This document shows positions 5,568-38,988 of a stretch of 64,000 nt of DNA, one piece after another (the first letter of the stretch is position 1; each line of letters opens with the position of its first letter). The stretch lies in assembly GCF_009725985.1 (NCBI RefSeq), contig NZ_RCNR01000016.1, positions 1 to 64,000 of the forward strand, in the 5' to 3' direction. The DNA comes from Zobellia amurskyensis (GTDB lineage Bacteria; Bacteroidota; Bacteroidia; Flavobacteriales; Flavobacteriaceae). The translations under genes and the position numbers were made by a program. The notes below the pieces were generated by a model. That model was given only the letters and a program-made list of their open reading frames with translations. It was not told where the DNA came from and made no database searches.

Positions 5568-5620
5568 CTCGAATTCTATTATGTTCGACTTTGAACATCG
5601 AACCATTTAAACATAATTTC

Positions 5621-13804: not shown

Positions 13805-13891
13805 GCTATTTTTTGTTACGGACAATCTAATTGCCTGTCCCTATTTATATCTATATGGAAAAATAATGTGTCATGGAGATAACATTTAAGA

Positions 13892-15725: not shown

Positions 15726-15750
15726 AATTTTTAGTTTTAAGGTTGATAAA

Positions 15751-18700
15751 TTATAAGCCAATACGGACTCCAAAAGTGAATGTTCTTAAGATTGGCAGAG
15801 TTAACCCGGTTGCACTAGATGCTTCTTCCGGGTCTATTATGTCCTTATAGATACCTAACTTGGAAAACGTTAACAAGTTATCGCCCGCAACATAGAATTC
15901 TAAGTTTTCAAACTTTATTAAATCCAACACTTCAGCCGGTAATTTGTAGCTTATATTAGCATTTTTAAGCCTTAGATAGGTTCCATCTTTATACCAAAAG
16001 TCTGATGATGCACCATTCCAAATGCGAGCCCCACTTCTCTCAAAAGCCGGTAGCTGCGCATTGGGGTTGGCCCCTACTCCTGGGTTAGAAGGGTCTTGCC
16101 TCCAACTATATTTTTCATGAAGGGTATATGGTACAGTTTCATTATTAAATGGATTTCTTGCTCCCGCGGTTATCAATACATTAAATTTAGAAGCACCTTG
16201 CCACAACATGCCTAAAGAAAAATTCTTATAGGAAAAATTAGTGTTCAAGGAAAAAAGCATTTCAGGTATATTTCCAAAACCTATTTCGTATTGATCATCC
16301 CTATTCAAAATATTATCTCCATTTCTGTCAATATATCTTATGTCCCCAGGCTTGGGAGATCCATTTAAATCCTCAATAGTAAACTGATTCAAGTATTCAT
16401 CTACTTCTTGCTGAGTGTTAAATAAACCGTCCGTTTGATATCCAAATGTTGTGTTAACATACCGTCCAGATCGTTTATCCAACCTTACCTGCGTAGGGTC
16501 CGTAAAGTCTATATTTTCTTGATAGTCTCCATAACGTTCTCGCGCCAACGTAAAAGTACCGGCAATATTTACCCCAAAATCTTCCCAATTATTTCTGTAC
16601 CCCACTAAGGCTTCAAAACCGCGATTATTTCTTGTATCCAAGTTCGTTGCCGGTAAGTTTGCGCCAAAAGTTGTTGGCAAACCTTCTATTGGCAACCTCA
16701 GCAAGCCTTCACGAAGACGGTAAAAAGCATCTATATTTGCATAAAGTTTACCTCCGAACAAACTTAGATCCAAACCAATATTATACATTGTTGTTTCTTC
16801 CCATGTAACTAATTGATTGGCTATACCCTCTGTTCTAATAGTGGGCGTAGGAGTATTTTCATCCAAGTAATACACTTGACCTGTTTCTGAAAACCCTGTT
16901 AAAAACTCAAAAGCCGTATTTCCGATATTACTATCTATACCGGTCTCGCTATAAGACAACCTTAATTTTAGTTCCTTTATAGTTTCGCTATTCTGCAAGA
17001 AATTTTCCTTGGCAATATTCCACCCAAGTGATAGGGACGGAAAGTATCCCCATCGCACATCCGGACCAAATTTTGAACTTCCGTCCGCTCTAAACGTACC
17101 TTCCAACAAATATTTGCCGTCATAAGAATAATTAAGTCTACCTGCCACACTTTGCCTAGTATAACTTAACGGCACACCCAATCCACCTGTAGTGGTAAGG
17201 TTATCGTCTCCTGCACTTACCTGTGGAACATCAGAAGACAGAAGATCTCTTCTCAAGACAGTCAACCGTTCATAAAGATTATCTTCTTTTTCTGCGAATG
17301 CGAGTGCCCCAATCGTATGCTTAGAAATATCTTTACTATAGTTTAGATAAGCACGGGACAGTATTCTTCTTTTGGGATCATCATTAAAATTGGCTCCACC
17401 AATATATTTATAAAAGTCATTTACAGAAATTGTAGCCTCTTTTGTATACCCATCATTATCAGCAGAAACTGCACTAGGATCAAAAGACCACACATCATAA
17501 GGCTGTCGTAATCTATCCTGCGTTATTAAACGAAACCTAATATTGTTTTTGACCCCAATACTTAACCCTGGAACAAAAGGTAAATTATATTTAATATCCA
17601 AAGCCGCAGCTAAAGTTTCTAGATCTGTCCTTTCATAACCTGCAAATTTCTGCTGTGTTCTAGCTACTGGAGACCTTTGTGAAAATCCTGAATATGGTGC
17701 TCTATCCGGATCAGGCAAAAACGGATTATACAGAGGTTGTGCTGTTCTAAGGTCATTCCAAACATCGTTTAAACCTATTGCTGCATAATCCCTTGATTCA
17801 TCTATATAGGAACTATTGAAACTTAAACTTAAATCAGGAGTAAGATTGGCATTTATATTATTGGTTATACTAATTTTCTTGTAATCATAGTCTCCATTAA
17901 ATATACTTGTTTGATTTTGCAACCCTAATGACGTGTAATATTGTACATTTTCCGAACCACCCGAAGCACTTAAGTTATGTTGAGCTATTTGAGCCCCACC
18001 ATTTCTTAGCAAAGCATCTACCCAACTATAACTTTTTTGTTCACCTGACCTTATCTCGGCCAATTTCTCTTCAGTAAACAAGCTACCATAATCTATGACC
18101 GCGTCAGGTGTTTCGGGATTATATTGAGCATTAAAAATGGCATCCCTGCCCAAACTAACAAACCCCTCTGCGCCAGATATTTCAGGAAAAGTTAATCGGT
18201 TCTGTGTTCCGTACCAACCATGATAGTTGATTTTGGTTTTTCCAGATTTACCGCTTTTTGTCGTTACCAAAATCACCCCATTACCGGCTCTTGCGCCATA
18301 AATTGCCGCAGAGGCATCTTTCAAAATTGATATCGTCTCTATATCATTAGGGTCCAACCTATCCAGATAAGACTCTACACCATCAACTATAACCAAAGGG
18401 TCACCAAACCCCCTAATACTGAAAGCAGCATTATCTTGACCGGGCAACCCCGGATTTTGATTAGTAATCAACCCTGCCGCTTGACCAATCAACAAATTTT
18501 TCACATTTGTTGCTGGAACTTGGGTGATATTATCCACCTTTACACTGGAAATAGAACCTGTAACACTCTCTTTTTTCTGTACGCCATAGGCCACAACTAC
18601 CACTTCATCCAAGAATGCCGCATCGCTCAGTAATGTAACTGTAACATTCTTGGCACTATCCAAAGTTACGGTAGCTGTTTTCATTCCAATATAAGAAACT

Positions 18701-19002
18701 TCAAGAATGTCACCTACGGTCGCTTCTATTAAAAAATTACCATCAAAATCTGCTACCACGCCACGTGTGGTACCTTTTACCAACACATTTGCACCCGATA
18801 ATGGAACACCATCTTCATCTAAAACCGTACCTTTTACAGTGGACTGCTCTATACTTCCCAACATCTTTGTAGTATAAATTGTTGTATTTCCACTAAAGGC
18901 TCCGCACACAGACGCATTCAATAAAAACACTCCAAGCAGAGGATAACACTTACCAAGTGCTTTCCAAAATTTAATTAGATGTATGAGTTTTAAGTTTTTC
19001 AT
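15751..19002 (-). CDS. susC: SusC/RagA-like TonB-dependent outer-membrane transporter
   Basis: 1083 aa from the ATG at 19002; the extra 18 codons upstream look like leader. A signal segment is followed by a carboxypeptidase-regulatory-like domain (VKGTVLDEDGVPLSGANV region), the TonB-box-like DEVVVVAYG, a plug domain with SIRGFG, and a long beta-barrel ending in an aromatic strand (FTFGVRIGL). It imports oligosaccharides with its SusD partner, powered by TonB. It is the first gene of the minus-strand locus and is preceded by a long leader (about 200 bp) carrying the TCCAT direct repeat. It is not a close duplicate of the SusC at 20572. Confidence 0.95.
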   Translation of the reverse strand: MKNLKLIHLIKFWKALGKCYPLLGVFLLNASVCGAFSGNTTIYTTKMLGSIEQSTVKGTVLDEDGVPLSGANVLVKGTTRGVVADFDGNFLIEATVGDILEVSYIGMKTATVTLDSAKNVTVTLLSDAAFLDEVVVVAYGVQKKESVTGSISSVKVDNITQVPATNVKNLLIGQAAGLITNQNPGLPGQDNAAFSIRGFGDPLVIVDGVESYLDRLDPNDIETISILKDASAAIYGARAGNGVILVTTKSGKSGKTKINYHGWYGTQNRLTFPEISGAEGFVSLGRDAIFNAQYNPETPDAVIDYGSLFTEEKLAEIRSGEQKSYSWVDALLRNGGAQIAQHNLSASGGSENVQYYTSLGLQNQTSIFNGDYDYKKISITNNINANLTPDLSLSFNSSYIDESRDYAAIGLNDVWNDLRTAQPLYNPFLPDPDRAPYSGFSQRSPVARTQQKFAGYERTDLETLAAALDIKYNLPFVPGLSIGVKNNIRFRLITQDRLRQPYDVWSFDPSAVSADNDGYTKEATISVNDFYKYIGGANFNDDPKRRILSRAYLNYSKDISKHTIGALAFAEKEDNLYERLTVLRRDLLSSDVPQVSAGDDNLTTTGGLGVPLSYTRQSVAGRLNYSYDGKYLLEGTFRADGSSKFGPDVRWGYFPSLSLGWNIAKENFLQNSETIKELKLRLSYSETGIDSNIGNTAFEFLTGFSETGQVYYLDENTPTPTIRTEGIANQLVTWEETTMYNIGLDLSLFGGKLYANIDAFYRLREGLLRLPIEGLPTTFGANLPATNLDTRNNRGFEALVGYRNNWEDFGVNIAGTFTLARERYGDYQENIDFTDPTQVRLDKRSGRYVNTTFGYQTDGLFNTQQEVDEYLNQFTIEDLNGSPKPGDIRYIDRNGDNILNRDDQYEIGFGNIPEMLFSLNTNFSYKNFSLGMLWQGASKFNVLITAGARNPFNNETVPYTLHEKYSWRQDPSNPGVGANPNAQLPAFERSGARIWNGASSDFWYKDGTYLRLKNANISYKLPAEVLDLIKFENLEFYVAGDNLLTFSKLGIYKDIIDPEEASSATGLTLPILRTFTFGVRIGL

Positions 19003-19210
19003 AGGTTCTGGTTTTATGGTTACATTATATACTTCGGTATTAAAACCCATCTTCAACTATCTTATTCAATCAAAAAAAAACCAAAATATGGACTATTACA
19101 CTCGAAAAGATGTAAATTAAAATAAAGTGACATAAGTACACTTATTTTAAAATAAGCTCGAATACATTGATTATTTAATAATTTTTGAAAAAATTGAAGT
19201 TATTATTTTG

Positions 19211-19218
19211 CTAAATTA
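19211..19218 (-). promoter_or_regulatory. -7-like promoter element for susC (minus strand)
   Basis: Minus-strand TAATTTAG is one mismatch from the Bacteroidota -7 consensus TAnnTTTG. A TTTG lies upstream (minus strand 19238-19235), with a slightly short 16-bp spacer. It starts 26 bp after the start of the proximal TCCAT repeat, the same geometry as two other promoters in this window. Confidence 0.45.
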
Positions 19219-19239
19219 TCTAAATTTGAATTATCAAAA

Positions 19240-19265
19240 ATGGAGTATTTACACAAAAACATGGA
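19240..19265 (-). promoter_or_regulatory. TCCAT direct-repeat operator upstream of minus-strand susC
   Basis: On the minus strand two half-sites, AAAAGTCCATGTTTT and AATACTCCATTTTTG, lie 21 bp apart in the same orientation. Two helical turns between direct half-sites is the usual layout for an AraC-family dimer. The same pair occurs before the plus-strand susC and before the PSD1 cassette. Binding by the AraC protein encoded next door is inferred. Another single TCCAT half-site lies on the minus strand at 19092-19088 in the leader, and single plus-strand copies lie at 19352 and 19413. Confidence 0.6.
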
Positions 19266-19450
19266 CTTTTAAATATTATTAAGGATAAGATTTAAAAAAA
19301 CATCAAAGTAATAGAAAAAAGAATTATTGCACCTATAAAACAAGTTTCATCTCCATTTATGAAGATTTAGATTCATCTTTCTTAATTGAATCAATTTTAA
19401 AAACCAGACCAATCCATGTACCTTATTCTAAAAAACAATGCTAAATTCTA

Positions 19451-20332
19451 ATGGAAAATTCTAAGATTAAAGAGGGTTTTTTAGGGCAAAAAATGATTGT
19501 TCTTCCCGATTCAATAAGAAAAGAACTTCATACCATTTGTGAATCTTTTTATATAACGGACATAGGTTTCTACCCTAATGCCCAACATCATTACAGGTCT
19601 AGAAAAAAAGGAATTAAGGAATATATCTTTATATATTGTATTGAGGGTAAGGGCAATTTAAAAGTAGATGGTCAGCTTATTCATGTACTCCCAAATACAT
19701 ATCATATTATCCATAGAAACACACCACATGAGTACAACTCAGACAAAAATGACCCTTGGAGTATCTATTGGATGCATTTTGGCGGGAACTTAACAGACAA
19801 TCTTTACAAGCGCTATATGGAACACCGAAGTAACAATGGCAGTATTGCTTTTGAACGTTCCAAAATAAACTTGTTCAATGAAATATTTCATATGTACAAG
19901 ACTGAATACACAGTTCCAAAACTAGAATATTCCAATATATTAGGATTAAACTTTATTAGCTCCTTTGTATATACGTCTAAAGGAATAGCTACGGATTCTA
20001 CCTCTCATACGAATATGATAAATTCCGTAATTGATTTTTTAATGTCCAACTTAGACAAGACATTTAAGTCTAGTGAAATTGCCAAACAATTTAATTGTTC
20101 ACCTTCTTACCTTTTTAACTTATTTAAAAAAAGAACTGGCTATTCCCTGATTCATTTTTTCAATCTGAAAAAAATACAAAAGGCTTGCGAATATTTAAAA
20201 TACACAGATTTGAGCATTAAAGAAATCAGTTATAAGGTAGGCATACAAGACCCTCTTTATTTTTCTAGAACCTTTAAGAAAAATTTTGGTGTTTCACCCA
20301 AAGAGTACAGAAAAACACAACAAGAATTCTAA
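19451..20332 (+). CDS. AraC-family transcriptional regulator
   Basis: 293 aa. The N-terminal half (about 25-165) is an AraC-type cupin sugar-sensing domain, with HHYRSRKKG and the segment VLPNTYHIIHRNTPHEY, abbreviated here to HRNTPHEY. The C-terminal 100 residues form the paired HTH_18 DNA-binding domain: KSSEIAKQFNCSPSYLFNLF region, then EISYKVGIQDPLYFSRTFKK region, ending in FGVSPKEYRK. No membrane segment or sensor kinase is present, so it should be a one-component cytosolic regulator responding to a sugar. It sits between two divergently transcribed susCD loci, each preceded by a 21-bp-spaced direct repeat, so it probably controls both. Confidence 0.93.
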   Translation: MENSKIKEGFLGQKMIVLPDSIRKELHTICESFYITDIGFYPNAQHHYRSRKKGIKEYIFIYCIEGKGNLKVDGQLIHVLPNTYHIIHRNTPHEYNSDKNDPWSIYWMHFGGNLTDNLYKRYMEHRSNNGSIAFERSKINLFNEIFHMYKTEYTVPKLEYSNILGLNFISSFVYTSKGIATDSTSHTNMINSVIDFLMSNLDKTFKSSEIAKQFNCSPSYLFNLFKKRTGYSLIHFFNLKKIQKACEYLKYTDLSIKEISYKVGIQDPLYFSRTFKKNFGVSPKEYRKTQQEF

Positions 20333-20448
20333 GCTCAGGATTTCCTCCTTAACCGGTCGTAACATAATATAGATTTTAACTTTTATTTTATCAATTAGAC
20401 AAAACCAGCATGCTATTTATATGGTTTTATTATTTATAAATTAAAAAA

Positions 20449-20474
20449 TCCATGTTTTAGCAAAAAACGTCCAT
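20449..20474 (+). promoter_or_regulatory. TCCAT direct-repeat operator upstream of plus-strand susC
   Basis: TCCAT at 20449-20453 and at 20470-20474 are in the same orientation with a 21-bp period, flanked by A-rich 5' and T-rich 3' sequence (AAAATCCATGTTTT and ACGTCCATTTGTA). The proximal copy runs into a TTTG at 20474-20477 that fits the -33 element, as expected for an activator contacting RNA polymerase. Regulator identity is inferred. Confidence 0.65.
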
Positions 20475-20504
20475 TTGTATGAGCTAAATATTTTCATAAT
20501 ATTG
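20474..20504 (+). promoter_or_regulatory. Bacteroidota-type promoter of susC
   Basis: TTTG at 20474-20477, then a 19-bp spacer, then TAATATTG at 20497-20504, one mismatch from TAnnTTTG. Transcription would begin near 20511, giving a leader of about 60 nt before ATG 20572. Confidence 0.55.
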
Positions 20505-20571
20505 TGTTAAGGATTTAACACGAATTTTTAGTTTTCAAAAAATCCTTAACTAAAAATCAATTAACAATACT

Positions 20572-23500
20572 ATGAAGCTAACATTCTCAACAAATCAACT
20601 CAAACTATTAGCTTTAGGAATTTCCCTATTATGGGGTAGCCTAACACTAACTGCACAAACAACTATTAATGGCACGGTAACCGATGGAGAAACTAATTCT
20701 CCTTTACCAGGAGTTAATGTCATTGCGGGAACCCAAGGGGTCATAACTGATTTTGACGGTAATTATGAATTATCTGTACCAAGTGAAATTATCACGTTAG
20801 AATTTTCATCATTAGGTTTTGCTACACAAAGCGTTGCTATTGATGGCCGTACCACAATTAATATAACAATGGACCCTGAAAGCCAAGCACTTGACGAAGT
20901 AGTCATAGTGGGGTATGGTACAGTTAAAAAGAGCGACTTAACAGGGTCTGTATCCTCCATTGACGGAGACGCCTTTAAAGAATTGCCAGTTACGTCAGTA
21001 GACCAAGCCATACAAGCAAGAGCTCCCGGGGTTCAAGTAACCCAAACATCTGCAGCTCCAGGCGGTGGTGTTTCAGTTCGTATTAGAGGTTCAAATTCAA
21101 TTAATAGTGGTAGCGAACCACTATATGTTGTTGACGGATTTCCAATATATCCAGACAATAGCGCTTATAGTGCTGGTGGAGCTAGACAAGCAACGAATAT
21201 CCTTGCCTCTATTAACCCGAACGATATAGAGTCTATTGAAGTTCTCAAAGATGCTTCTGCCACCTCCATTTACGGGTCAAGAGGATCCAATGGTGTTGTA
21301 TTGATTACTACCAAAAGAGGTAAGGCGGGAAAGGCAAAAATCAGTTATGATGGATCATATTCAACCCAGACCATAACCAATCCAATAAACGTATTGACCG
21401 GTTCAGAGTTTGCAACCTACTTGAACACTTTGGAAACTAGCCAAGGCGGTGCACCTATTTACTCACAAGATCAGATAAGTGCTTTTGGTAAAGGAACAAA
21501 CTGGTTAGACGAAGTAACAAGGGTAGGTTCTGTTCAAAATCATCAACTTACATTTTCAGGTGGAAATAAAGAAAATAGATATGCGATAACAGGAAATTAT
21601 CATGACAATAAAGGCATCATTAAAATGACAGATTTCCAAAGATATGGTATTCGACTAAATGTTGACAATTCTGTTTTCAATAATTTTTTAAACGTTAGTT
21701 CTAGCTGGTCTTACAACAGAACGGTCTCAAACAATGCTCCTACCGACCAAGGAGGACCTGGAGGTATTATTATTACTGCTTTGGGTCTGGATCCAACGGT
21801 ACCTGTATTTAATGAAGACGGGACCTATGCGTTGGCATCCTACGATGGTAGATTTTCAATAAATCCGCTACAAGAGCTTGAATTTGCAACCGATAAGGAT
21901 ATCACCAATAGAGTTTTAGGAAATACCACATTTACCTTTAACCTAACAGAACACTTAAAAGCCAAAACAAGTATTGGAGCAGATATCTTAAATATAAATA
22001 GAACAAGTTTTTTCCCATCTGTAAACACTAGAATAGGTAGGGACAATGCTGGCGAATTAACTCTTGCCAACAGAAATTCCGGGAATATCTTAAATGAAAA
22101 CTTACTTACTTACAACAACCAATTTGGAAAGCATTTTGTAGATGCCGTTGCAGGTTACACTTACCAGAAAGAAGTCAATAATTTCTTCAGCAGTACCACA
22201 CGCGGCATTACAGCTGCTTCTGTAAACCAAGCCACTTTACAAGGAGGACCAGATATCATAACCCCAACTTCCAACAGAAGAGAGTGGTTATTAGAATCTG
22301 TTTTAGGTAGAATCAATTATAATTTTGACAGTAGATATTTGGCAACCGTAACGTTTAGAAGAGATGGTTCTTCAAGATTTGGAACCGAGAACAAGTGGGC
22401 AAACTTTCCTTCCTTAGCTTTAGGGTGGAATTTATCAAATGAAAATTTCTTTGCCGATAAGGGAATTTCAGAGATAATGAACAACTTTAAACTTAGAGCA
22501 AGTTGGGGATTAACCGGTAACTCGGAAATACCAGTTTACAATTCTTTGGCAAACCTTAGCGAATTTAATTATGTAGTTAACGGTAGTTTGGTTTTAGGTC
22601 TTGCTGACGACAGATTAAGCAACGCCGATTTGAAATGGGAGTCAACAACAATGAGAAACATTGGTATTGACGCTTCCTTCTTTAATAGCCGTATGAACTT
22701 AACATTAGATTATTTTAGCAATAGAACTGAAGACCTTTTACTTTTTGTTTCTATACCAAGTAGCCTTGGATTTCAATCTATACTTAAAAACTCCGGTTCA
22801 CTGGAAAACACAGGATTTGAAATTGGATTGGATGGTTATATAGTGAATGGAGAGGATTTTAAATGGAATGTTGCAGGTAACCTTTCAATCCTTAAAAACG
22901 AGCTTACAGATTTGGGCGATAGCACTCCTTTCTTCTCTAGCTCCACAAGTGGTCACCTTGGTGTAGAAGGTAGCTGGGTAGAAGCTGGCAACCCAATAGG
23001 TGTTTGGAGAGGATATGATTATGTGGGTATTTTCCAATCAGAAGATGAAATAGCCAACAACCCTTCAAGATCAGGAGACAAACCAGGTTACCCACAATAT
23101 AGGGATGTAAACGGTGATGGCGAAATTACTCCAGATGACTATGTGATTATAGGTGACCCAAATCCTGATTTCACTTGGGGATTAAATTCAACATTTACCT
23201 ATAAGAATTTTGATATGGGCCTATTTTTCAGAGGTTCTCAAGGATTTGATGTAAGAAACTTGCAAGCTTCTGAATTAGGTGATGGTGTTCAAAAAATAAA
23301 TCAAATCAGCACAATCCTTACAAACTCTTGGACACCTACTAATACTGGAGCCTCAAGACCCGTAATAGACGGAAACAGAGACTTTGCCAACTCTTACAGA
23401 GATTCAGATTACTTTATTGAAGATGGATCGTTCATTAGACTTCAAAATGTATCGTTAGGGTATACACTTCCACAATTTAACGATCTCATATCAAAAGCAA

Positions 23501-23661
23501 GAATTTATGTAAGTGGTCAAAATTTATTCACAATTACAGATTATACTGGCTTTGACCCAGAAGTGAATAATAGAGGTCAGAATAACTTAAATAGAGGAGA
23601 TGACTATGACGCTTACCCACGATCAAGAACTTTGACTTTGGGAGTAAATCTAGAATTTTAA
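20572..23661 (+). CDS. susC: SusC/RagA-like TonB-dependent outer-membrane transporter
   Basis: 1029 aa. Signal peptide (1-28, cleavage near LTA-Q), carboxypeptidase-regulatory-like domain (about 30-102), TonB-box-like DEVVIVGYG at 108-116, plug with RIRGSNSIN, and a beta-barrel ending SRTLTLGVNLEF. It takes up glycan fragments with the SusD protein that starts 17 bp downstream. It is the first gene of the plus-strand locus and follows a recognisable promoter and direct-repeat operator. The plug and barrel differ from the minus-strand SusC, so the two loci probably handle different fragments or different glycans in one regulatory circuit. Confidence 0.96.
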   Translation: MKLTFSTNQLKLLALGISLLWGSLTLTAQTTINGTVTDGETNSPLPGVNVIAGTQGVITDFDGNYELSVPSEIITLEFSSLGFATQSVAIDGRTTINITMDPESQALDEVVIVGYGTVKKSDLTGSVSSIDGDAFKELPVTSVDQAIQARAPGVQVTQTSAAPGGGVSVRIRGSNSINSGSEPLYVVDGFPIYPDNSAYSAGGARQATNILASINPNDIESIEVLKDASATSIYGSRGSNGVVLITTKRGKAGKAKISYDGSYSTQTITNPINVLTGSEFATYLNTLETSQGGAPIYSQDQISAFGKGTNWLDEVTRVGSVQNHQLTFSGGNKENRYAITGNYHDNKGIIKMTDFQRYGIRLNVDNSVFNNFLNVSSSWSYNRTVSNNAPTDQGGPGGIIITALGLDPTVPVFNEDGTYALASYDGRFSINPLQELEFATDKDITNRVLGNTTFTFNLTEHLKAKTSIGADILNINRTSFFPSVNTRIGRDNAGELTLANRNSGNILNENLLTYNNQFGKHFVDAVAGYTYQKEVNNFFSSTTRGITAASVNQATLQGGPDIITPTSNRREWLLESVLGRINYNFDSRYLATVTFRRDGSSRFGTENKWANFPSLALGWNLSNENFFADKGISEIMNNFKLRASWGLTGNSEIPVYNSLANLSEFNYVVNGSLVLGLADDRLSNADLKWESTTMRNIGIDASFFNSRMNLTLDYFSNRTEDLLLFVSIPSSLGFQSILKNSGSLENTGFEIGLDGYIVNGEDFKWNVAGNLSILKNELTDLGDSTPFFSSSTSGHLGVEGSWVEAGNPIGVWRGYDYVGIFQSEDEIANNPSRSGDKPGYPQYRDVNGDGEITPDDYVIIGDPNPDFTWGLNSTFTYKNFDMGLFFRGSQGFDVRNLQASELGDGVQKINQISTILTNSWTPTNTGASRPVIDGNRDFANSYRDSDYFIEDGSFIRLQNVSLGYTLPQFNDLISKARIYVSGQNLFTITDYTGFDPEVNNRGQNNLNRGDDYDAYPRSRTLTLGVNLEF

Positions 23662-23678
23662 TATAAAAAACACCAAAT

Positions 23679-25268
23679 ATGAAAAAGCATAAAAATGCAA
23701 TTCCATGGAGTTTTATCCTACTCCTGACCATTGCTATAAACTTAATAGGCTGTACGGATTTAGAGGAGAATCCCGACTTTACAACACAAGAAAATTTCTT
23801 TGCAACTGCTGAACAACTAGAATTAGGAGTAAACGCCGTATACGATGGTATTGGGTACGGGCAAGACTGGTTCAATCACTATTACAACAGATTTGTATTT
23901 GAGTGTTTAGCGGGTTACCAAGTAGGTTGGGAGAAAGGCCCCTTAAATTATCAAAATGGGAATGTATCTCCGGATGATGAGTATATAGAAGCGTATTGGA
24001 GAATTTCCTACGAAAACATAAACCGGGCCAATGCTGTTATTCAAAAAGCAGACGAGTTAAAAGAAGAGGGTGTTCCCAATATTGCCCTAGTGGACAGAGT
24101 TAAGGCCGAAGCTCAATTTTTGAGAGCATTTTACTACTTTAATTTGGTACGGTATTTTGATAATATACCAGTAACAACAACAAGAACTGAAAGTGACCAA
24201 GACTTACCTTCTAACGAAAATGGAAAAAAAGTGGCTTTGGATTTAATACAATCAGATTTAACCATGGCCGCAAATATTTTACCAGAGTCCCATGATTCAG
24301 AAAACCTAGGACGTGCTACAAAATGGGCCGCCCTAGCCTTGTTGGTCAAGGCATACTTACAAGATGAAAAATGGGAACAAGCCCTAACTACGTCCGAAAT
24401 AGTTATTAATGAGAGTGGCGTTACTTTATTTGATAATTTTGCCGATACATTTTCTGCTGCTATGGAAAATTCCGGCCCAAGAATATTTGAAGCACAAGTT
24501 TCAGCCGGAGCCAACGCAGGTGAAAACCAGAATTATCATCAACATTTTATTCCTGGAGATTTGCCTAATGACCTTGGAGGTGTTGGATGGCACTGGCTAA
24601 ATTCAACTCAAGCGTTCCGTGAGAAATATGACCCGACCGACAAAAGAATTTCGGGTACTTTTATTGAAGAATATCCAACTACCAGAGTCGGACCAAATAC
24701 AGCAGGCGAAAGACCTGTTGTTAAATGGAGTGCAGATGCATCATACAATTTGAGCCGTTTTGGCGGAATGGTAGCCGCAGATGCAGACCCAAATAACCCG
24801 GATGAGCTTATTTTCTCTAACGGATGGTCTGCAAAATATACAGAAATGGGTATCGACAACGCTAATTTAACGGAAAAGAATATTGTTTATTTAAGATTAG
24901 CAGACATATTACTAGGACACTCAGAGGCTGCTAACGAAAGTGGTATTGGAGACCCTTACTTTGGCATAAACGAAGTAAGACGAAGAGCAGGATTGGCTCC
25001 ATTGTCTGGGTTGAACAAAGAAACTTTAAGGGATGCGATAGTAAATGAACGGGTTCTTGAATTTGCAATGGAGTGCGAAGTATATCCTGAATTAAAAAGA
25101 AAAAGTACGTTTGGAGGCTCTCCCGACTATCTTGGAGATTATATTCAAGAATTTATTGATACCTATGATGTAGACAGAACATTATCTGCAAAAGACTATG
25201 TACTACCCTTGCCACTTAACGAGGTTTTGGGCAACCCTAACGTAACCCAAAACCCGCAGTATCAATAA
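23679..25268 (+). CDS. susD: SusD/RagB-like nutrient-binding lipoprotein
   Basis: 529 aa. Lipobox NLIGC puts the acylated Cys at residue 25. SusD features include AEAQFLRAFYYF, the KWAALALLVKAYL helix, the C-terminal EVRRRAGLAPL segment, and the terminal NPNVTQNPQYQ, which is very common in this family. It is the surface glycan-binding partner of the SusC encoded 17 bp upstream. A strong terminator-like hairpin follows its stop, so expression of later genes is probably reduced or separately driven. Confidence 0.95.
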   Translation: MKKHKNAIPWSFILLLTIAINLIGCTDLEENPDFTTQENFFATAEQLELGVNAVYDGIGYGQDWFNHYYNRFVFECLAGYQVGWEKGPLNYQNGNVSPDDEYIEAYWRISYENINRANAVIQKADELKEEGVPNIALVDRVKAEAQFLRAFYYFNLVRYFDNIPVTTTRTESDQDLPSNENGKKVALDLIQSDLTMAANILPESHDSENLGRATKWAALALLVKAYLQDEKWEQALTTSEIVINESGVTLFDNFADTFSAAMENSGPRIFEAQVSAGANAGENQNYHQHFIPGDLPNDLGGVGWHWLNSTQAFREKYDPTDKRISGTFIEEYPTTRVGPNTAGERPVVKWSADASYNLSRFGGMVAADADPNNPDELIFSNGWSAKYTEMGIDNANLTEKNIVYLRLADILLGHSEAANESGIGDPYFGINEVRRRAGLAPLSGLNKETLRDAIVNERVLEFAMECEVYPELKRKSTFGGSPDYLGDYIQEFIDTYDVDRTLSAKDYVLPLPLNEVLGNPNVTQNPQYQ

Positions 25269-25298
25269 GAAGTTGTTTTAGTTTATTTATTACGTTTT

Positions 25299-25334
25299 GA
25301 AACCTGTCTTTTACAGACAGGTTTCTATTTTTTC
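25299..25334 (+). terminator. Intrinsic terminator or attenuator after susD
   Basis: An 11-bp perfect stem (GAAACCTGTCT / AGACAGGTTTC) with loop TTTAC, followed by TATTTTTTC, has classical terminator form. The next gene starts only 38 bp later, so it may be a partial terminator. A second small inverted repeat (TTATACA at 25340, TGTATAA at 25354) lies just before that gene. Confidence 0.75.
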
Positions 25335-25371
25335 TTAAATTATACAATATTCCTGTATAAAGTTTTTATTT

Positions 25372-28300
25372 ATGAAAACAGCCGTCCCAACCTATATACT
25401 TGTTCTTTCCACAATTCTATTGGCATTCTCTTCGTGCTCGGATAAAACATTAGACCAAAAAAACAACAAAACAACATCTCCTTTATTTGAGCAAGCCAAT
25501 ATAGAAAGAACCAATATCAACTTTTCAAATGAAATTAGAGAAAATGATCAATTTAATATAGTCGACTATTTTTATGTCTATAACGGAGGTGGAGTTTCAA
25601 TAGGCGATTTAAACAATGATGGGCTTCCGGATATATTTTTTTCAGGTAATATGGTTAGCGATGCTTTATACATGAACCTTGATAGTCTTAAATTCAAAGA
25701 CGTTACCAAAAACTTAGGCAACTATAATAATGGTTGGTCTACAGGAGCAACAATGGTAGACATTAACCATGACGGACTTCTTGATATATATGTATGCCGC
25801 TCTGGTAATTTTGAAGAAAACAAACGTAAAAACCTCCTGTTTATAAATCAAGGTGATTCTTCTTTTAAAGAACAAGCAGAAACCTATGGTTTAGCAGATA
25901 GTAGTTATAGCACCCAAGCCGTGTTTTTTGATTACGACAAAGATGGCGATCTTGATATGTATCTTTTAAACCATACCAATACCGTAAGAGACCCTAACAG
26001 CATTAAACACTTGTTGTCCAATGGCAAAGGCCCTGCTAATGACAGACTTTATAGAAATGACGAAGATAAAGGTAATGGTATAAGATTTACTGAGATAAGT
26101 AAACAAGCTGGTATTTTACTAGACGGTTTTGGTTTGGGGGTAAGCATTGCCGATGTAAATGATGATGGTTGGGAAGACATCTTTGTAACCAATGATTTTT
26201 TAGCCAACGATTACATCTATATAAATCAACAAGACGGTACTTTTAAAGAAATGGCAAAATCTTATTTAAAACATGTAAGCCATTTTAGCATGGGCAATGA
26301 TGTAGCAGACTTCAACAATGATGGCCTTTTGGACCTTGTAACGGTAGATATGCGTCCTGAAGATAATTTTCATGAAAAAAAAATGTCAGGCGCCCTTAAT
26401 TTTGATTTGTTTGAAAAAGCCTCATCGTTTGGCTACTTGCCCCAATATATGCGCAACACTCTTCAAATCAATAGAGGTAAAAATGCCACAACCAAAACGC
26501 AATTTTCGGAAATTGGACAACTCGCCGGGATTGATGCAACAGATTGGAGCTGGGGGCCCTTGTTTGCAGATTTTGACAATGATGGACTAAAAGATTTGTT
26601 TATAACCAATGGCTACTTAAGGGATATCACTGACCTAGACTTCATTAACTATACCAATACATTGGCCAATAGTAAAATGCACGACAGCCTAGACCACATT
26701 TTAAAAGAAAAAGCTAAAGAAAGACCATCAATTAAAATTCCTAATTACGCTTTTAAAAATTCAGGCGGACTTACTTTTGAAAATGTCACTAACAAATGGG
26801 GGGTTGACCACCCATCACTTTCAAATGGTGCTGCCTACTCTGACCTGGATAATGACGGCGATCTTGATTTGGTCATTAATAATATAAACGATTTAGCCAC
26901 AGTATACGAGAACCGATCAAACTCTATTAGTGAAAATTATTACCTAACTATAAATCTCATAGGAGACAGTTTAAATTTGGACGGTCTAGGAACAGAAGTT
27001 CGCATATATCAAGCAAGTGGAAGTCAATTAAAAAGACAATCGGTAACGAGAGGGTATCAATCCTCCGTAGATAAAACCGTGCACTTTGGGTTAGGAACCG
27101 ATCCAAAAATCGATAGTATTTTAGTTGCCTGGCCAAACGGCAAAATCAATAAAATCCTAAATCCGAAAACCAATCAAAAATTAACAATTTCCATGAACTC
27201 TGGTAGTGCTATTTTAAAACTGTCCTCCAAAGAAAGTAAGAAGATTTTTAAAGATAATACCAATAATCTAAAACTAGCTCTATCACATGGCGAAACCATT
27301 TATTATGACTTTAACAGAACCTACTTACTTCCTCATAAATTATCCGAACAAGGACCCGGCTTGGCTGTTGGCGACATAAACAATGATGGTTTTGAAGACT
27401 TTTTCATGGGAGGTGGCTACAATCATAGTGGGCGTTTATTCTTTGGTTCGAAAAGCGGTACTTTCAGTAATAAATTACTTACACCTAATGAAAAAGAAAA
27501 GTACGAAGAAGACACCGGCGTCCTATTATTCGATTATGATAACGACAACGACCTTGATTTATATATAACCAGTGGCAGTAATGAGTTTCATGAAAACTCA
27601 AAATACTACCAAGATCGTTTATACGAAAACGACGGTCAAGGAAATTTTAAACTTACGGAAACGGTCTTACCAACACTGTTGAGTAGTACTTCTTGTGTTA
27701 GAGCTGCAGATTTTGATAAAGATGGAGATTTAGACCTTTTTGTAGGTAGTAGACTTACTCCTTTAAAATATCCCCTACCCTCCAAAAGTTATTTATTAGT
27801 TAATGAAGGGGGTAAATTTATTGATGCTACTAACAAATTAGCTCCCGCCTTAAGAAAACCTGGTATGGTTACCGACGCCATTTGGACAGATTATGATTCG
27901 GATGGTGATTTTGACTTAATTGTGGTGGGTGAATTCATGGCCATTGAATTTTATGCAAACCATAATGGAACTTTCAGTAACAGTTCTCTAAAGACTGGAC
28001 TTACGCATACTGCCGGTTGGTGGAACAGTATTAATGGTGGGGATTTTGACAATGACGGCGATATAGATTATATACTGGGTAATCTTGGACTAAATTCAAA
28101 ATACAAAGCCACTTCAGAAGAACCGTTGTCCATCTACGCTTCAGACTATGATAAAAATGGCACAATAGACCCAATTATAACGACATTTAATAATGGCAAA
28201 GAATATCCTGTTCACTCACGAGACGATATTATAAAACAAATTCCTCAACTAAAGAAAAAATTTCCTGACTACGCTAGTTATGCGCAAGCAACAATAAACG

Positions 28301-28932
28301 AAGTTTTAACACCTCAAGAAAAAAGCAGTTCTTATAGTGCCAAAGTATTTGAATTTGCAACTTCTATCTTAATAAATAATGGCAACGGAAAGTTCGACTT
28401 AAAACCTTTACCAGAATGGGCACAAATTGCACCAGTTTATGGAATACTAATTTCAGATTTTGACGGAGATGGCAATCTAGATGTTTTACTTTCCGGTAAC
28501 AATCACGGTACCGAAGTAGGAATTGGAAGATACGACGCTTCCAAAGGAACATATTTAAAAGGTACAGGAAAAGGGAATTTCATTCCTTGGGCATTTTCAG
28601 ATTTAGGACTATTAATTGATGGAAACGCGCGTGGGGCCGCGGCCATAACCATCAATAATAAACAAGGGTATTTATTCGGGTCAAACAACGGTAATTTAAA
28701 ATCTTATATGTTATCCGATCAAGTTAATTCTAACAAAGCACTAACCATACCCGAAAAGAGTGTAATGGCTAAAATTGTTTTAGATGACGGTAAAATAAGA
28801 ATGCATGAACTCTACAATGGCTCAAGTTACCTTTCTCAATCCACAAAAAGCATTCAACTTTCCGGAAGAGAAAAATCGGTGATTTTTTCAGATAGCAAAG
28901 CACGAAAAACCGGTATTTACAATAAACCTTAA
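25372..28932 (+). CDS. VCBS/FG-GAP repeat lipoprotein with ASPIC/UnbV domain
   Basis: 1186 aa. Lipobox at FSSCS follows a short signal. Many calcium-loop motifs of DxDxDG type (DINHDGLLD, DYDKDGDLD, DVNDDGWED, DSDGDFD) mark FG-GAP/VCBS beta-propeller blades in both halves. An ASPIC/UnbV-like segment lies between them near residues 530-605 (NLIGDSLNLDGLGTEV region). Such proteins are very common directly after susCD in marine Bacteroidota and are thought to be surface-exposed, perhaps binding glycan or protein partners; the function is unproven. It lies behind the terminator-like hairpin and before the PSD1 operator. Confidence 0.9.
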   Translation: MKTAVPTYILVLSTILLAFSSCSDKTLDQKNNKTTSPLFEQANIERTNINFSNEIRENDQFNIVDYFYVYNGGGVSIGDLNNDGLPDIFFSGNMVSDALYMNLDSLKFKDVTKNLGNYNNGWSTGATMVDINHDGLLDIYVCRSGNFEENKRKNLLFINQGDSSFKEQAETYGLADSSYSTQAVFFDYDKDGDLDMYLLNHTNTVRDPNSIKHLLSNGKGPANDRLYRNDEDKGNGIRFTEISKQAGILLDGFGLGVSIADVNDDGWEDIFVTNDFLANDYIYINQQDGTFKEMAKSYLKHVSHFSMGNDVADFNNDGLLDLVTVDMRPEDNFHEKKMSGALNFDLFEKASSFGYLPQYMRNTLQINRGKNATTKTQFSEIGQLAGIDATDWSWGPLFADFDNDGLKDLFITNGYLRDITDLDFINYTNTLANSKMHDSLDHILKEKAKERPSIKIPNYAFKNSGGLTFENVTNKWGVDHPSLSNGAAYSDLDNDGDLDLVINNINDLATVYENRSNSISENYYLTINLIGDSLNLDGLGTEVRIYQASGSQLKRQSVTRGYQSSVDKTVHFGLGTDPKIDSILVAWPNGKINKILNPKTNQKLTISMNSGSAILKLSSKESKKIFKDNTNNLKLALSHGETIYYDFNRTYLLPHKLSEQGPGLAVGDINNDGFEDFFMGGGYNHSGRLFFGSKSGTFSNKLLTPNEKEKYEEDTGVLLFDYDNDNDLDLYITSGSNEFHENSKYYQDRLYENDGQGNFKLTETVLPTLLSSTSCVRAADFDKDGDLDLFVGSRLTPLKYPLPSKSYLLVNEGGKFIDATNKLAPALRKPGMVTDAIWTDYDSDGDFDLIVVGEFMAIEFYANHNGTFSNSSLKTGLTHTAGWWNSINGGDFDNDGDIDYILGNLGLNSKYKATSEEPLSIYASDYDKNGTIDPIITTFNNGKEYPVHSRDDIIKQIPQLKKKFPDYASYAQATINEVLTPQEKSSSYSAKVFEFATSILINNGNGKFDLKPLPEWAQIAPVYGILISDFDGDGNLDVLLSGNNHGTEVGIGRYDASKGTYLKGTGKGNFIPWAFSDLGLLIDGNARGAAAITINNKQGYLFGSNNGNLKSYMLSDQVNSNKALTIPEKSVMAKIVLDDGKIRMHELYNGSSYLSQSTKSIQLSGREKSVIFSDSKARKTGIYNKP

Positions 28933-28967
28933 AATACGCTAACAACTTATCTTATAAAATATTAAAG

Positions 28968-28993
28968 TCCATATCCTATCATTAAAAATCCAT
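28968..28993 (+). promoter_or_regulatory. TCCAT direct-repeat operator upstream of the PSD1 cassette
   Basis: TCCAT at 28968-28972 and 28989-28993, direct orientation, 21-bp period, in AAAGTCCATATCC and AAAATCCATGTAT contexts. A -7-like TAATATTA (29015-29022) starts 26 bp after the proximal repeat start, matching the geometry before both susC genes. This places the cassette in the same probable AraC regulon and argues against ATG 28992, which lies inside the operator, as a start codon. Confidence 0.6.
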
Positions 28994-29063
28994 GTATTTG
29001 CGCAATTATTTTATTAATATTAAACTGATTACAGACGAACATGGAATTAAAATTTTTAGAAGA

Positions 29064-31838
29064 ATGAATCCTTTATTATCAATGGAAAAACTTTCTAACT
29101 TAATAATGTATTTTATTGTGAAATACTGGTGCAAAAAACTAATGACCTTTCTGGTTTTCTGCTCCCTATGGTCATGCAATCAATCCTCCGAAAAAATTGA
29201 TTTTAGTTCTCAAGTAAAGCCCATTTTAAATAATAACTGTATCACTTGCCATGGTGGGGTTAAGAAAAGTGGCAATTTTAGCTTACTTTTTAAGGAAGAG
29301 GCGTTTGCGGTAACGGAATCCGGCAAACCGGCAATAATTCCTGGAGATGCAAAAAATAGTTCATTTATTCAAAGATTGCATGAAGAAGACCCTGAATTGA
29401 GAATGCCTTATGAAAAACCGAAACTAACGGACGAAGAAATAGAACTGTTGACGAAATGGGTTGACCAAGGAGCCGAATGGGGGCAACACTGGGCATATAC
29501 TTTACCCGAAAAGGTTGAATTACCACCAATTACCGAAGAAGCTGGATTAATATCATCTGAAACCAACAATTTCCTACAAAACAATATTGACCGTTTTATA
29601 CTGAATAGATTAAAAAATGAAGAACTATCTCCTAATGGACCCGCTTCAAAAAACATACTTATCAGAAGACTTTCTTTTGACTTAACAGGATTGCCTCCAA
29701 GTGCCAAACTATATGAAGAATTTACTAATGGTAAACTATCTTATGAAAAAACAGTAGATCAATTAATGGCCCAATCTACATATGGTGAAAAATGGGCCAG
29801 TTGGTGGTTAGATTTGGCAAGATATGCAGATACAAAGGGGTATGAGAAAGATCAGGGCCGTAGTATGTGGCGTTACAGGGACTGGGTTATAAAATCTCTG
29901 AATGAAGATATGCCCTATAATCAATTTACCACTGAGCAATTGGCAGGAGATTTGCTACCAAACCCATCTGTAGATCAGCTAATTGCCACAGCTTTTCATA
30001 GAAATACAATGAATAATGACGAGGGAGGCACAGACGATGAAGAATTTCGCGTAGCCTCTGTTTTGGACCGTGTAAACACCACCTTCTCAGTATGGCAAAG
30101 TACCACTATGGAATGTGTACAATGCCATAGTCATACTTATGATCCTTTTAAACAAAAGGAATATTATAAGGCAATGGCATTCTTTAACAATACCAAAGAT
30201 GAAGACACACCAGATGAAAGTCCCACTCTTCGTTTTTATGATGAGAAACAAATTGAACTAAAAAACAAGATTATATCGTGGATAGAAAAATATGGTTCTG
30301 AACAAGACCGAAAAAAATACAGTGATTTCTTGACTTTTTTAGAGCCGAAATATTTAGCTCACAACGCCACAAACTTTGTTAATGGAGAACTTGCGGACAC
30401 GAAATATTTGGCACTGTGGGACGATGGGTCCTGTGTGCTCAAAAATGTAAGTCCGCGCGGAGCAACATCAATGTACCTTAATCACCAAGCCTTTATGAAT
30501 GGCACCACTATGACCATTAGAAAAAATAACGCTGATGGGGAAATTCTGGCACAGTTCAAAATGAACAAGACGGACGGCTACAACATTAAAAAAATAACGT
30601 TCAAGCCTATAAATGAAACTGTAGACCTTTATTTTGAAGCCAATAATGATGCAATTGGAAAACAGGTTTCTACTAGTTTCATTACTTGGTTAGCTTTTCT
30701 AAATGATATACCAGGTTCTTCCGAGAATGGCTATGCACAAATCAACCAGTCGTTTTTAGAATTATTAAATAATAAAACCCAAGACCTACCTATTATGATA
30801 GAGAACCCTAAAGAGATGCAAAGGGTTACACAGGTCTTTGATAGAGGAAATTGGTTAGCCTTAACAGATACAGTTAAACCTGGTACTCCAAAAATTTTAA
30901 ATGAATATAATGAAGAATGGCCGGCAAATAGGCTAGGACTTTCTAAGTGGTTAGTAAGCAAAGAAAACCCCTTAACCTCCCGCACCCTTGTCAATAGGGT
31001 TTGGCATCAAATTTTTGGCAGAGGTATTGTTTCTTCGCTTGAAGATATGGGTACCCAGTCTTCCCCACCAAGCCACCCCGCTCTTTTAGACTGGCTCTCA
31101 CTTAGGTTCATGAATGAACAAAACTGGAGCATAAAAACTCTAATTAAGGAAATTGTAATGTCTGGCACATATAGACAGAGTTCCATTATTTCCCCAGAAC
31201 TATATCAAAAGGACCCTCATAACGAACTTTACGCTCGTGGTCCAAGAATACGTTTAACTGCTGAGCAAATAAGAGATCAAGCCTTGGCGGTCTCAGGCTT
31301 ATTAAGCACAAAGATGTATGGCCCCGGTGTCATGCCTCCACAACCCGATGGTGTATGGCAATCTGTTTATAGTAATGCTTCCTGGAAAGTAAGTCATGGA
31401 GAAGACAAATATAGAAGAGCTATATATACATACCTAAAACGTACAAGCCCCTACCCTTCTTTTATCACATTTGATGCCGGCAGTAGAGAAGTTTGTACTA
31501 TTAGACGTACGGTGACCAACACTCCATTACAAGCACTGGTTACCTTAAACGATCCGGTTTACCTAGAGGCGGCATACGCTTTTGCAAAAGTTATGAATAC
31601 CGACGATTTAGAGAAAGGCATTTCAGCAGGATTTAAAAAAGCGACACTATCAGAAATAGATCAAGGAGAATTAAAGATTCTAATGAATCTATACGAACAG
31701 GCAACAATAGAATTCAAGGCTAGTGAACACCAAGAAAAGTTTCTAGGACTGGAAGAAAAACCCAGCACAAAACTTGCTGCATTGACTATTGTTGCAAATG
31801 CCATCATGAACTTAGATGAATTTTTAACCAAAGCATAA
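29064..31838 (+). CDS. PSD1-type cytochrome c lipoprotein (PSCyt1-DUF1549-DUF1553)
   Basis: 924 aa from ATG 29064. The open frame reaches 28992, but that ATG is inside an operator repeat; ATGs at 29082 and 29106 are also possible. A hydrophobic stretch ends in a lipobox-like SLWSC. One heme site, CITCH, follows shortly (PSCyt1 domain). Then come DUF1549 (SYGEKWASWWLDLARYADT region, seen as WWLDLARYADTKGY), a second Cys pair CVQCH, and DUF1553 near the C-terminus (RVWHQIFGRGIV). This architecture is typical of Planctomycetes and is found in some Bacteroidota with DUF1501 partners. A periplasmic redox role is likely, but no reaction is established. Confidence 0.9.
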   Translation: MNPLLSMEKLSNLIMYFIVKYWCKKLMTFLVFCSLWSCNQSSEKIDFSSQVKPILNNNCITCHGGVKKSGNFSLLFKEEAFAVTESGKPAIIPGDAKNSSFIQRLHEEDPELRMPYEKPKLTDEEIELLTKWVDQGAEWGQHWAYTLPEKVELPPITEEAGLISSETNNFLQNNIDRFILNRLKNEELSPNGPASKNILIRRLSFDLTGLPPSAKLYEEFTNGKLSYEKTVDQLMAQSTYGEKWASWWLDLARYADTKGYEKDQGRSMWRYRDWVIKSLNEDMPYNQFTTEQLAGDLLPNPSVDQLIATAFHRNTMNNDEGGTDDEEFRVASVLDRVNTTFSVWQSTTMECVQCHSHTYDPFKQKEYYKAMAFFNNTKDEDTPDESPTLRFYDEKQIELKNKIISWIEKYGSEQDRKKYSDFLTFLEPKYLAHNATNFVNGELADTKYLALWDDGSCVLKNVSPRGATSMYLNHQAFMNGTTMTIRKNNADGEILAQFKMNKTDGYNIKKITFKPINETVDLYFEANNDAIGKQVSTSFITWLAFLNDIPGSSENGYAQINQSFLELLNNKTQDLPIMIENPKEMQRVTQVFDRGNWLALTDTVKPGTPKILNEYNEEWPANRLGLSKWLVSKENPLTSRTLVNRVWHQIFGRGIVSSLEDMGTQSSPPSHPALLDWLSLRFMNEQNWSIKTLIKEIVMSGTYRQSSIISPELYQKDPHNELYARGPRIRLTAEQIRDQALAVSGLLSTKMYGPGVMPPQPDGVWQSVYSNASWKVSHGEDKYRRAIYTYLKRTSPYPSFITFDAGSREVCTIRRTVTNTPLQALVTLNDPVYLEAAYAFAKVMNTDDLEKGISAGFKKATLSEIDQGELKILMNLYEQATIEFKASEHQEKFLGLEEKPSTKLAALTIVANAIMNLDEFLTKA

Positions 31839-33409: not shown

Positions 33410-34294
33410 ATGACCAAATTACGACACCTTTATATAGTAGCACTATTGCTAACTAGTACCATTGGCACCAGTCAAGAACAGAAGACGATTCAATTTTTTC
33501 AAACCGATTGGGGGTGTACGATTTCATGGGATGCTTTTTGCGAAAAAACAGCTGCCGCTGGGTATGACGGTATCGAAATTTGGTTTCCGAACGCAGTAGA
33601 AGACCAACAAAATTTAAAGGCCGCATTAAAAAAGCATGATTTAAAAGTGGGCTTTATAAACGGCACCAATAAATCGGTTTCATTTGAAGAAAGTTTAAAA
33701 AGCTATGAAGCACATTTAAGATTTTTGACCACCTGGTCGCCTGTCTATATAAACACCCATACCGGTAACGACTTTTTTACATTTGCGCAGAACAAGGCAT
33801 TTATCGCTATCGCCAACACAATTGCTAAAGAAAGTAAGATACCGATATACCATGAAACGCATAGAGGGCGCTTTAGTTTTAACCTGCCCGATACCAAAAC
33901 ATACTTAGCTGCAATTCCGGATTTAAAATTGAACCTAGATATTAGCCATTGGATGGTGGTACACGAATCTTTATTGGAACAACAAGATAATACGCTAAAA
34001 GAAGTAATAGAGCGCACACATCACCTCCACGCACGTGTTGGGCATTCAGAAGGTCCGCAAGTAAACGACCCTGAAGCACCAGAGTGGAAAAAAGCCGTAG
34101 AGCGACATCTTACGATTTGGGAAAAAGTAATTCGCAACCATTGGGAAACAAACGACACGTTTACCCTCACTACAGAATTCGGACCTGCAGGTTATATGCC
34201 CACCTTGCCTTTTACACAAGTTCCAGTGGCAGACCAGTGGAAAGCAAATCTCTACATGATGAAAGTGATTAAAGAACGAATGAATATTGAATAG
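33410..34294 (+). CDS. Exported TIM-barrel sugar isomerase/epimerase-like protein
   Basis: 294 aa with a Sec signal peptide (hydrophobic IVALLLTSTIG, cleavage near GTS-Q), so it is periplasmic, unlike true xylose-isomerase-like metabolic enzymes. Probable metal or catalytic residues of the AP-endonuclease-2-type barrel are in GIEIWFP, YHETHRG, NLDISHW, HARVGHSEG and TTEFGP. It starts 30 bp after the DUF1501 gene. Some members of this superfamily act on 3-keto sugars by beta-elimination or hydrolysis; its place beside cytochrome proteins makes a similar periplasmic role plausible, but this is inference. Confidence 0.85.
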   Translation: MTKLRHLYIVALLLTSTIGTSQEQKTIQFFQTDWGCTISWDAFCEKTAAAGYDGIEIWFPNAVEDQQNLKAALKKHDLKVGFINGTNKSVSFEESLKSYEAHLRFLTTWSPVYINTHTGNDFFTFAQNKAFIAIANTIAKESKIPIYHETHRGRFSFNLPDTKTYLAAIPDLKLNLDISHWMVVHESLLEQQDNTLKEVIERTHHLHARVGHSEGPQVNDPEAPEWKKAVERHLTIWEKVIRNHWETNDTFTLTTEFGPAGYMPTLPFTQVPVADQWKANLYMMKVIKERMNIE

Positions 34295-38886: not shown

Positions 38887-38914
38887 TTATATTGTGCATT
38901 GATATGCTATAGTG

Positions 38915-38988
38915 TCGGGATGACAGGATTTGAACCTGCGACCCCACGCCCCCCAGGCGTGTACGCTACCGGACTGCGCTACATCCCG
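38915..38988 (-). tRNA. tRNA-Pro (anticodon GGG)
   Basis: 74 nt cloverleaf on the minus strand. Acceptor stem CGGGATG pairs with CATCCCG, discriminator A. Anticodon stem CACGC/GCGTG encloses loop CTGGGGG with anticodon GGG. The T arm is GCAGG-TTCAAAT-CCTGT. The 3' CCA is not encoded. C1:G72 is typical of bacterial proline tRNA. tRNA genes are frequent integration targets, and an integrase gene lies downstream. Confidence 0.95.

Follow-up and report, generated by a model that had tools for sequence, protein, structure and literature searches.

A 64,000-nucleotide stretch of the Zobellia amurskyensis genome (contig NZ_RCNR01000016.1, hereafter the window) carries three pairs of TCCAT in direct repeat, the two copies of each pair starting 21 bp apart. 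We propose that these repeats are the operators of a 293-amino-acid AraC-family regulator encoded between the first two of them, which would jointly activate two susCD operons and a cassette of PSD1 and DUF1501 genes. Taking the genomic and comparative evidence together, we put the probability of this reading at roughly 0.83. The regulator, the predicted operators and the promoter elements beside them are as follows, with scores and ranks from the weight matrix described below.

19451..20332, plus strand: AraC-family regulator, 293 amino acids, AraC_binding cupin and two helix-turn-helix (HTH) motifs (Pfam PF02311, E=2.2e-12; PF12833, E=2.6e-21; PF00165)
19240..19265, minus strand: predicted AraC operator 1, before susC1; exact repeat, matrix score 23.0, rank 2
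20449..20474, plus strand: predicted AraC operator 2, before susC2; exact repeat, matrix score 24.4, rank 1
28968..28993, plus strand: predicted AraC operator 3, before PSD1; exact repeat, matrix score 22.1, rank 3
19211..19218, minus strand: -7-like box TAATTTAG, susC1 promoter, corresponding to column 47 of the cross-genome logo
20497..20504, plus strand: -7-like box TAATATTG, susC2 promoter
29015..29022, plus strand: -7-like box TAATATTA, PSD1 promoter

The three pairs are those picked out in the initial annotation, and they are the only copies of TCCAT-N16-TCCAT in the window; 100 shuffles gave a mean of 0.24 copies, and none had three or more. The annotation had also placed a TAnnTTTG-like element 26-27 bp beyond the proximal repeat. 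Measured from the start of the proximal TCCAT, the distance is 26 bp for TAATTTAG, 27 bp for TAATATTG and 26 bp for TAATATTA, with five, five and four of the six fixed positions matched, respectively.

The regulator matches solved structures, among them 6swi (E=2e-15) and the DNA-binding domain of Escherichia coli AraC, 2k9s (E=1.6e-11). A cupin ligand domain at the N-terminus and a double HTH at the C-terminus give it the architecture of a one-component sugar regulator, and direct repeats about two helical turns apart beside a promoter, recognised here from sequence only, are the operator arrangement of the AraC family. It had been described as the only regulator gene in the area; among the 28 of the 40 window open reading frames (ORFs) of at least 120 amino acids that were scanned with Pfam, it is the only regulator of the AraC type.

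The initial annotation had assigned the repeats to this protein by proximity, and their co-occurrence in other genomes now supports the assignment. A search of the AraC protein against 397 genomes of the family found an ortholog (E up to 1e-45) in 37 genomes, the own genome included, and up to 20 kb was fetched around each ortholog gene of the other genomes, 37 in all because one genome carries two. Intergenic TCYAT-N16-TCYAT is present at 30 of these 37 loci, giving 39 sites in total. Strong enrichment is confined to this period: k=16 gave 36 intergenic TCCAT-Nk-TCYAT matches, and every other k between 5 and 35 gave 5 or fewer. Among loci taken with short flanks, a site was found beside 24 of 34 orthologs versus none of 15 distant AraC-domain hits. 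Named genomes were scanned as well: of 477 relatives the best 80 loci were kept, and 66 of these have an intergenic site (115 sites, of which a few are overlapping readings and some have low scores). Here k=16 gave 110 matches, and no other k between 8 and 30 gave more than 7. Because this set overlaps the 37-locus ortholog set, it is not an independent sample. Its genomes range from Maribacter, Arenibacter and Polaribacter to Pedobacter, and include metagenome-assembled genomes labelled Bacteroidales and Ignavibacteriaceae.

The logo of the 39 sites consists of (T/A)AGT at -11 to -8, TCCAT, a TCYAT 21 bp on, and then TAnnTTTG, whose start lies at a fixed distance of 26 bp from that of the proximal half. 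That half is TCTAT in 25 of the 39 sites. The consensus TAAAARTCCAT suggested earlier is therefore good for the window lineage only, the form in relatives being (T/A)AGT-N7-TCCAT with TCTAT as the usual proximal half.

The same data bear on the possibility that the repeats serve some other protein and that the adjacent AraC is a bystander. Bacteroides hybrid two-component regulators, which also use an AraC-type DNA-binding domain, have predicted motifs that are likewise direct repeats, averaging 21 bp and lying before polysaccharide-use operons (in the excerpted text of PMC3878776), and the Z. amurskyensis genome holds open frames of 1335-1429 amino acids, presumably hybrids of this sort, whose end matches the DNA-binding part of AraC (four matches). 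However, the motif goes with orthologs of the one-component AraC at the 30 and 66 loci just given and is absent from the 15 loci with distant AraC-domain proteins, and sites before PSD1 occur only where araC is present (see below). We therefore regard a bystander AraC as unlikely.

To score sites without reference to the window, we built a weight matrix from 36 sites of other genomes near AraC orthologs, excluding three PSD1 sites and all window sequence. Scanned with this matrix, the window yields the three predicted operators as its first to third hits (24.4, 23.0 and 22.1), the next scoring 6.0; the top score in 100 first-order Markov windows was 16.6. The training sites themselves have a median of 39.2 and a minimum of -2.0, and most lie above the window sites, chiefly because the window lineage is without the AGT flank.

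Across the own genome (5,136,021 bases in 120 contigs), TCCAT-N16-TCCAT occurs 29 times, versus 19 for a reversed-pattern control. When all 29 copies were checked for ORFs, 24 lay within ORFs of at least 112 amino acids, three of these (L003, L008 and L026) in short ones of 112-149 amino acids, which may not be real genes. Five copies remain and are intergenic: the three window sites, L025 and L014. Four of the five precede a susC or PSD1 gene, and the occurrence at many unrelated promoters that would have spoken against a dedicated operator is thus not what the genome displays. L025, on contig C53, is followed by a susC and then a susD gene, is overlapped only by a 102-amino-acid antisense ORF and scores 19.5; it is a credible fourth site, before a third susCD pair. 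The earlier count of three promoters is right for those three and falls short by this one. On the other side of the fourth site lies a gene with a 3-keto-disaccharide hydrolase domain (stretch L074, 2034-6255). L014, on contig C15 before a 168-amino-acid gene, scores only 1.3 and was judged a chance match. The form commoner in relatives, TCCAT-N16-TCTAT, gave no sign of extra sites in the own genome (28 matches versus 28 in the control); two matches are intergenic, scoring 3.4 and 5.3.

TCCAT is a short word, and the 24 copies within ORFs are what chance would give, so one might ask whether the window pairs too are accidents of AT-rich promoter DNA. The shuffle, reversed-pattern, spacing and independent-matrix controls all speak against this, as does conservation of the site at the equivalent promoters in two Maribacter species, and we consider a chance origin scarcely credible. 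In those genomes, Maribacter sp. MMG018 and M. thermophilus (L222 and L223; AraC 77% identical), the window layout is repeated, with a site ahead of each of susC2, PSD1 and the divergent operon, which there opens with a sulfatase gene.

A further member of the proposed regulon is the cassette behind operator 3, which comprises the following genes.

28992..31838, plus strand: PSD1/PSCyt2/PSCyt1 cytochrome protein, as listed (Pfam; CxxCH at residues 83 and 375 of the listed ORF)
31862..33379, plus strand: DUF1501 protein, twin-arginine-like N-terminus (Pfam PF07394; N-terminus)
33410..34294, plus strand: xylose-isomerase-like TIM barrel, apparently exported (Pfam AP_endonuc_2; N-terminus)
34307..35701, plus strand: membrane PSCyt1/DUF2231/LRR protein, CxxCH at residue 185 (Pfam)

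The PSD1 ORF as listed begins at 28992, within the proximal repeat of operator 3, so the true start is probably later, at 29106 or 29142. The DUF1501 protein has matches (E up to 1e-100) in 102 of the 397 genomes. For comparison, cassettes were picked by DUF1501 similarity and not by regulator: 40 were fetched (at least 73% identity), making 41 with the window, and G290 (74%), a fragment in G356 (76%) and hits below 73% identity were left out. The TIM gene accompanies 28 of the 40 fetched cassettes and PSCyt1 39, one cassette (L183) being without either, which leaves PSD1 and DUF1501 as the constant core. TrkH, at 35755 in the window, was considered as a further member and rejected, as it was matched in none of the 40 (stretches L185 and L211 end at the cassette).

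A site lies before PSD1 in 6 of the 41 cassettes. Five are exact (the window, L183, L189, L191 and L192), and the sixth, L194, is a one-mismatch form with ACCAT for TCCAT that scores 20.3. The five fetched cassettes that bear a site score 12.2 to 32.2, and no other fetched cassette exceeds 6.0. All six belong to genomes with araC: 6 of 13 cassettes in such genomes have the site versus 0 of 28 in genomes without it (Fisher p = 0.0004, kinship ignored). In L183, araC is on a different contig from the cassette. The nearest relative of the window cassette (L182) and the sisters of L183 and L189 (L184 and L190) are all without a site, in genomes without araC. In a quick tree of DUF1501 plus PSD1, without bootstrap, the six site-bearing cassettes fall in two separate parts among site-less ones, which would fit either two gains or one gain with losses. 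Inclusion of the PSD1/DUF1501 cassette in a glycan regulon, advanced earlier from the window, is supported by these near-sister comparisons and by the recurrence in other genera.

Several single genomes touch on the same point. Arenibacter troitsensis has a one-mismatch PSD1 site (score 20.1). In Lacibacter luteus (L289) araC stands beside a PSD1 cassette with no good operator (score 11.2), and in Arenibacter sp. 6A1 PSD1 lies near araC with no good site (score 0.9). Genome G347 (L103, L194) has an in-frame TGA in araC together with its degenerate PSD1 operator, which is suggestive, and only suggestive, of regulator and site decaying together. The own genome holds a second PSD1-DUF1501-TIM-PSCyt1 cassette on contig C88 (L211), without an operator and grouping with same-genus cassettes; because of this, the window cassette may be a separate acquisition.

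Could the PSD1 site be non-functional, with the cassette simply read through from the susC2 operon? The last gene of that operon, encoding an FG-GAP protein, is on the same strand as PSD1, the gap between the two genes is 59 bp with the listed PSD1 start and about 170 bp with a start at 29106, and a search of it for terminator-like stems returned none, where 0.2 were expected. On the other side, operator 3 can be aligned with four other PSD1 promoters, and in this five-promoter alignment both TCCAT halves and a TTAAT-TTA in the -7 region are invariant within diverged flanks and form the longest conserved blocks. Moreover, the cassette comes directly after araC, with a site of its own, in Euzebyella marina, Croceivirga radicis and Cytophaga sp. 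FL35; the first two are L191 and L192, already counted above, and not further cases. Read-through alone is accordingly very improbable, and regulation of the cassette by AraC through its own candidate operator is the better supported reading.

A number of observations weigh against the proposed regulon. There is no exact intergenic site at 7 of the 37 ortholog loci (L069-L073, L100 and L103) or at 14 of the 80 named loci; many of the site-less loci belong to more distant orthologs, but not L100 (53% identity) or L103. Five further stretches beside two orthologs (L118-L122) are also without a site. Seven of the 13 cassettes in araC genomes have none, the second copy in the own genome among them. 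The A-box of the relatives is not kept in the window, where -9 is A instead of G in all three sites, although A at -9 is also found in 14 of the 39 sites of relatives. The PSD1-promoter box TAATATTA agrees with the consensus at only 4 of 6 positions. A few exact matches score low (-2.0 in the training set, 0 to 11 for several named sites) and are probably chance, and neighbourhood alone does not show which protein binds.

As for mechanism, an AraC dimer would sit on one face of the DNA, the second HTH of each monomer contacting one TCCAT, with 21 bp, or two helical turns, from one contact to the next. The -7 box begins 26-27 bp downstream of the start of the proximal half, which would thus take up the -33 region (a class II position); from there bound, sugar-loaded AraC most likely activates. 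Activation would switch on operon 1 (susC1-susD1-sulfatases-MFS-GDSL-GH2-DUF5107), operon 2 (susC2-susD2-FG-GAP), the cassette (PSD1-DUF1501-TIM-PSCyt1) and the further susCD pair elsewhere in the genome. The sites, their spacing, the -7 box and the association with this AraC across genomes are read directly from the sequences, whereas binding, activation, the dimer mode, the operon extents and the nature of the inducer are what we infer from them.

AraC might instead bind these sites mainly as a repressor that is relieved by sugar. E. coli AraC has both activator and repressor roles, and at 10 of the 115 named sites the repeat runs into the start region of araC, an arrangement compatible with negative autoregulation. 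At such overlaps coding could help to keep one half, because TCCAT is the reverse complement of the ATGGA at the araC start, but it could not explain the other half or the -7 box. The placing of the proximal half in the -33 position, at a fixed distance from the -7 box, is activator-like. In Zobellia, deletion of the AraC-family gene cgrA caused a lag and reduced growth on carrageenans, from which its authors infer positive regulation (in the available part of PMC5698469), a parallel that would extend to the window AraC if the two were orthologs. A mainly repressing role appears improbable, and activation remains the preferred reading.

The genes of the two susCD operons are listed here.

15751..19056, minus strand: susC1, TonB-dependent receptor (Pfam Plug)
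13971..15773, minus strand: susD1 (Pfam SusD_RagB)
12281-13825 and 10624-12219, minus strand: two sulfatases, each with C-x-P-S-R (Pfam Sulfatase plus motif)
9187..10587, minus strand: MFS sugar transporter (Pfam Sugar_tr; NCBIfam best match XylE, below cut-off)
8465-9190, minus strand: GDSL esterase (Pfam)
5621-8452, minus strand: GH2 (Pfam)
2247-5606, minus strand: DUF5107-TPR protein (Pfam)
20572..23661, plus strand: susC2 (Pfam Plug)
23679..25268, plus strand: susD2 (Pfam SusD_RagB)
25372..28932, plus strand: FG-GAP/UnbV_ASPIC protein, lipoprotein-like N-terminus (Pfam; N-terminus)

The GH2 protein resembles the exo-beta-1,4-galactosidase BT4151 (1202.9 bits, under the model cut-off of 1500). 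An MFS relative is found within 47 of the 80 named loci and DUF5107 in 37, and the operons behind such sites elsewhere include, besides MFS and GH2, genes for aldose 1-epimerase, GH30, GH43, GH92 and GH97. This gene content, together with the window sulfatases, weakly suggests that the inducer comes from galactose-type, partly sulfated glycans. The suggestion is weakened by the 43 named sites at which the next gene is an unlabelled ORF: ten such genes were scanned with Pfam, and the commonest type, of about 470 amino acids, matched no family above cut-off.

We tentatively advance a further idea, which we hold to be possible but less than even in likelihood: PSD1-DUF1501-TIM-PSCyt1 would act in the periplasm, carrying out a cytochrome-linked reaction as sulfated galactan-type glycans are degraded, and would have come under AraC control perhaps more than once, so that uptake and redox treatment of the imported sugar would be co-induced. 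The shared DNA tag probably ties the PSD1 cassette to glycan use. Operator and regulator together give a handle on PSD1/PSCyt/DUF1501 genes, which are common; if the proposal is true, the cassette should be inducible by the same glycan as the linked SusCD and sulfatase genes. The operator model also allows the regulon to be collected, and its substrate guessed, in many Bacteroidota genomes.

Two other features of the window were recorded. Just past the cassette, a tyrosine recombinase gene (37416-38651) adjoins the 3' end of a tRNA-Pro gene (38914-38988), and the regulon may lie on an integrated island, although among direct repeats of at least 20 bases none was recognised as an attachment repeat for this integrase beside tRNA-Pro. 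Between 44756 and 53255, genes for a TIM barrel, gluconate-2-dehydrogenase subunit 3, a GMC oxidoreductase and Gfo/Idh/MocA proteins are clustered, perhaps as a sugar-oxidation pathway.

Among known systems, E. coli AraC is similar in having a cupin and two HTH motifs, same-orientation half-sites 21 bp apart and a TCCAT box in one half. Read from NC_000913, E. coli araI is TAGC-N7-TCCAT followed 21 bp on by a second TAGC half. Set against this half-site, the window sites have the TCCAT and lack the G; the A-box, TAGC in E. coli, is AGT in the relatives, within (T/A)AGT-N7-TCCAT. The second recognition helix, which we take to read the TCCAT box, is DPLYFSRTFKK here and DQLYFSRVFKK in E. coli AraC, with 9 of 11 residues alike. 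This likeness is weak evidence, since 6swi and other proteins of the AraC type also have YFS-FKK helices and since the second half of araI has no TCCAT. The predicted targets differ as well, being SusCD, sulfatase and cytochrome operons; no arabinose catabolism genes were found in the three operons or the window ORFs scanned, the rest of the genome not having been searched.

The Bacteroides hybrid regulators share the AraC-type DNA-binding domain and the 21-bp repeats, whereas the window regulator is a one-component protein of 293 amino acids, cupin plus HTH, with no kinase or receiver domain. A parallel in setting is CgrA of Zobellia galactanivorans, an AraC-family protein of a marine flavobacterial glycan locus with sulfatases, which is needed for normal growth on carrageenan and whose regulon includes a co-induced SusCD pair encoded elsewhere (available part of PMC5698469). 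In that text no operator is described (the word 'operator' occurs 0 times), and no PSD1 cassette is among the genes described. PSCyt and PSD domains also occur together in the planctomycete-specific cytochrome genes of Verrucomicrobia, often with sulfatase genes near PSCyt, and the functions of these genes were called unknown in 2017 (PMC5615132, in the part available); here, by comparison, they are found in a Maribacter relative and tied to a particular AraC-type regulator. Searches of the openly licensed literature turned up no title or abstract opening that describes this operator or places a PSD1/DUF1501 cassette within a glycan regulon of Bacteroidota; the term DUF5107 occurs in one listed paper. 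Switches of this kind are already known; the PSD1/DUF1501 cassette under a glycan-type AraC, and the operator model that goes with it, are new as far as this literature extends.

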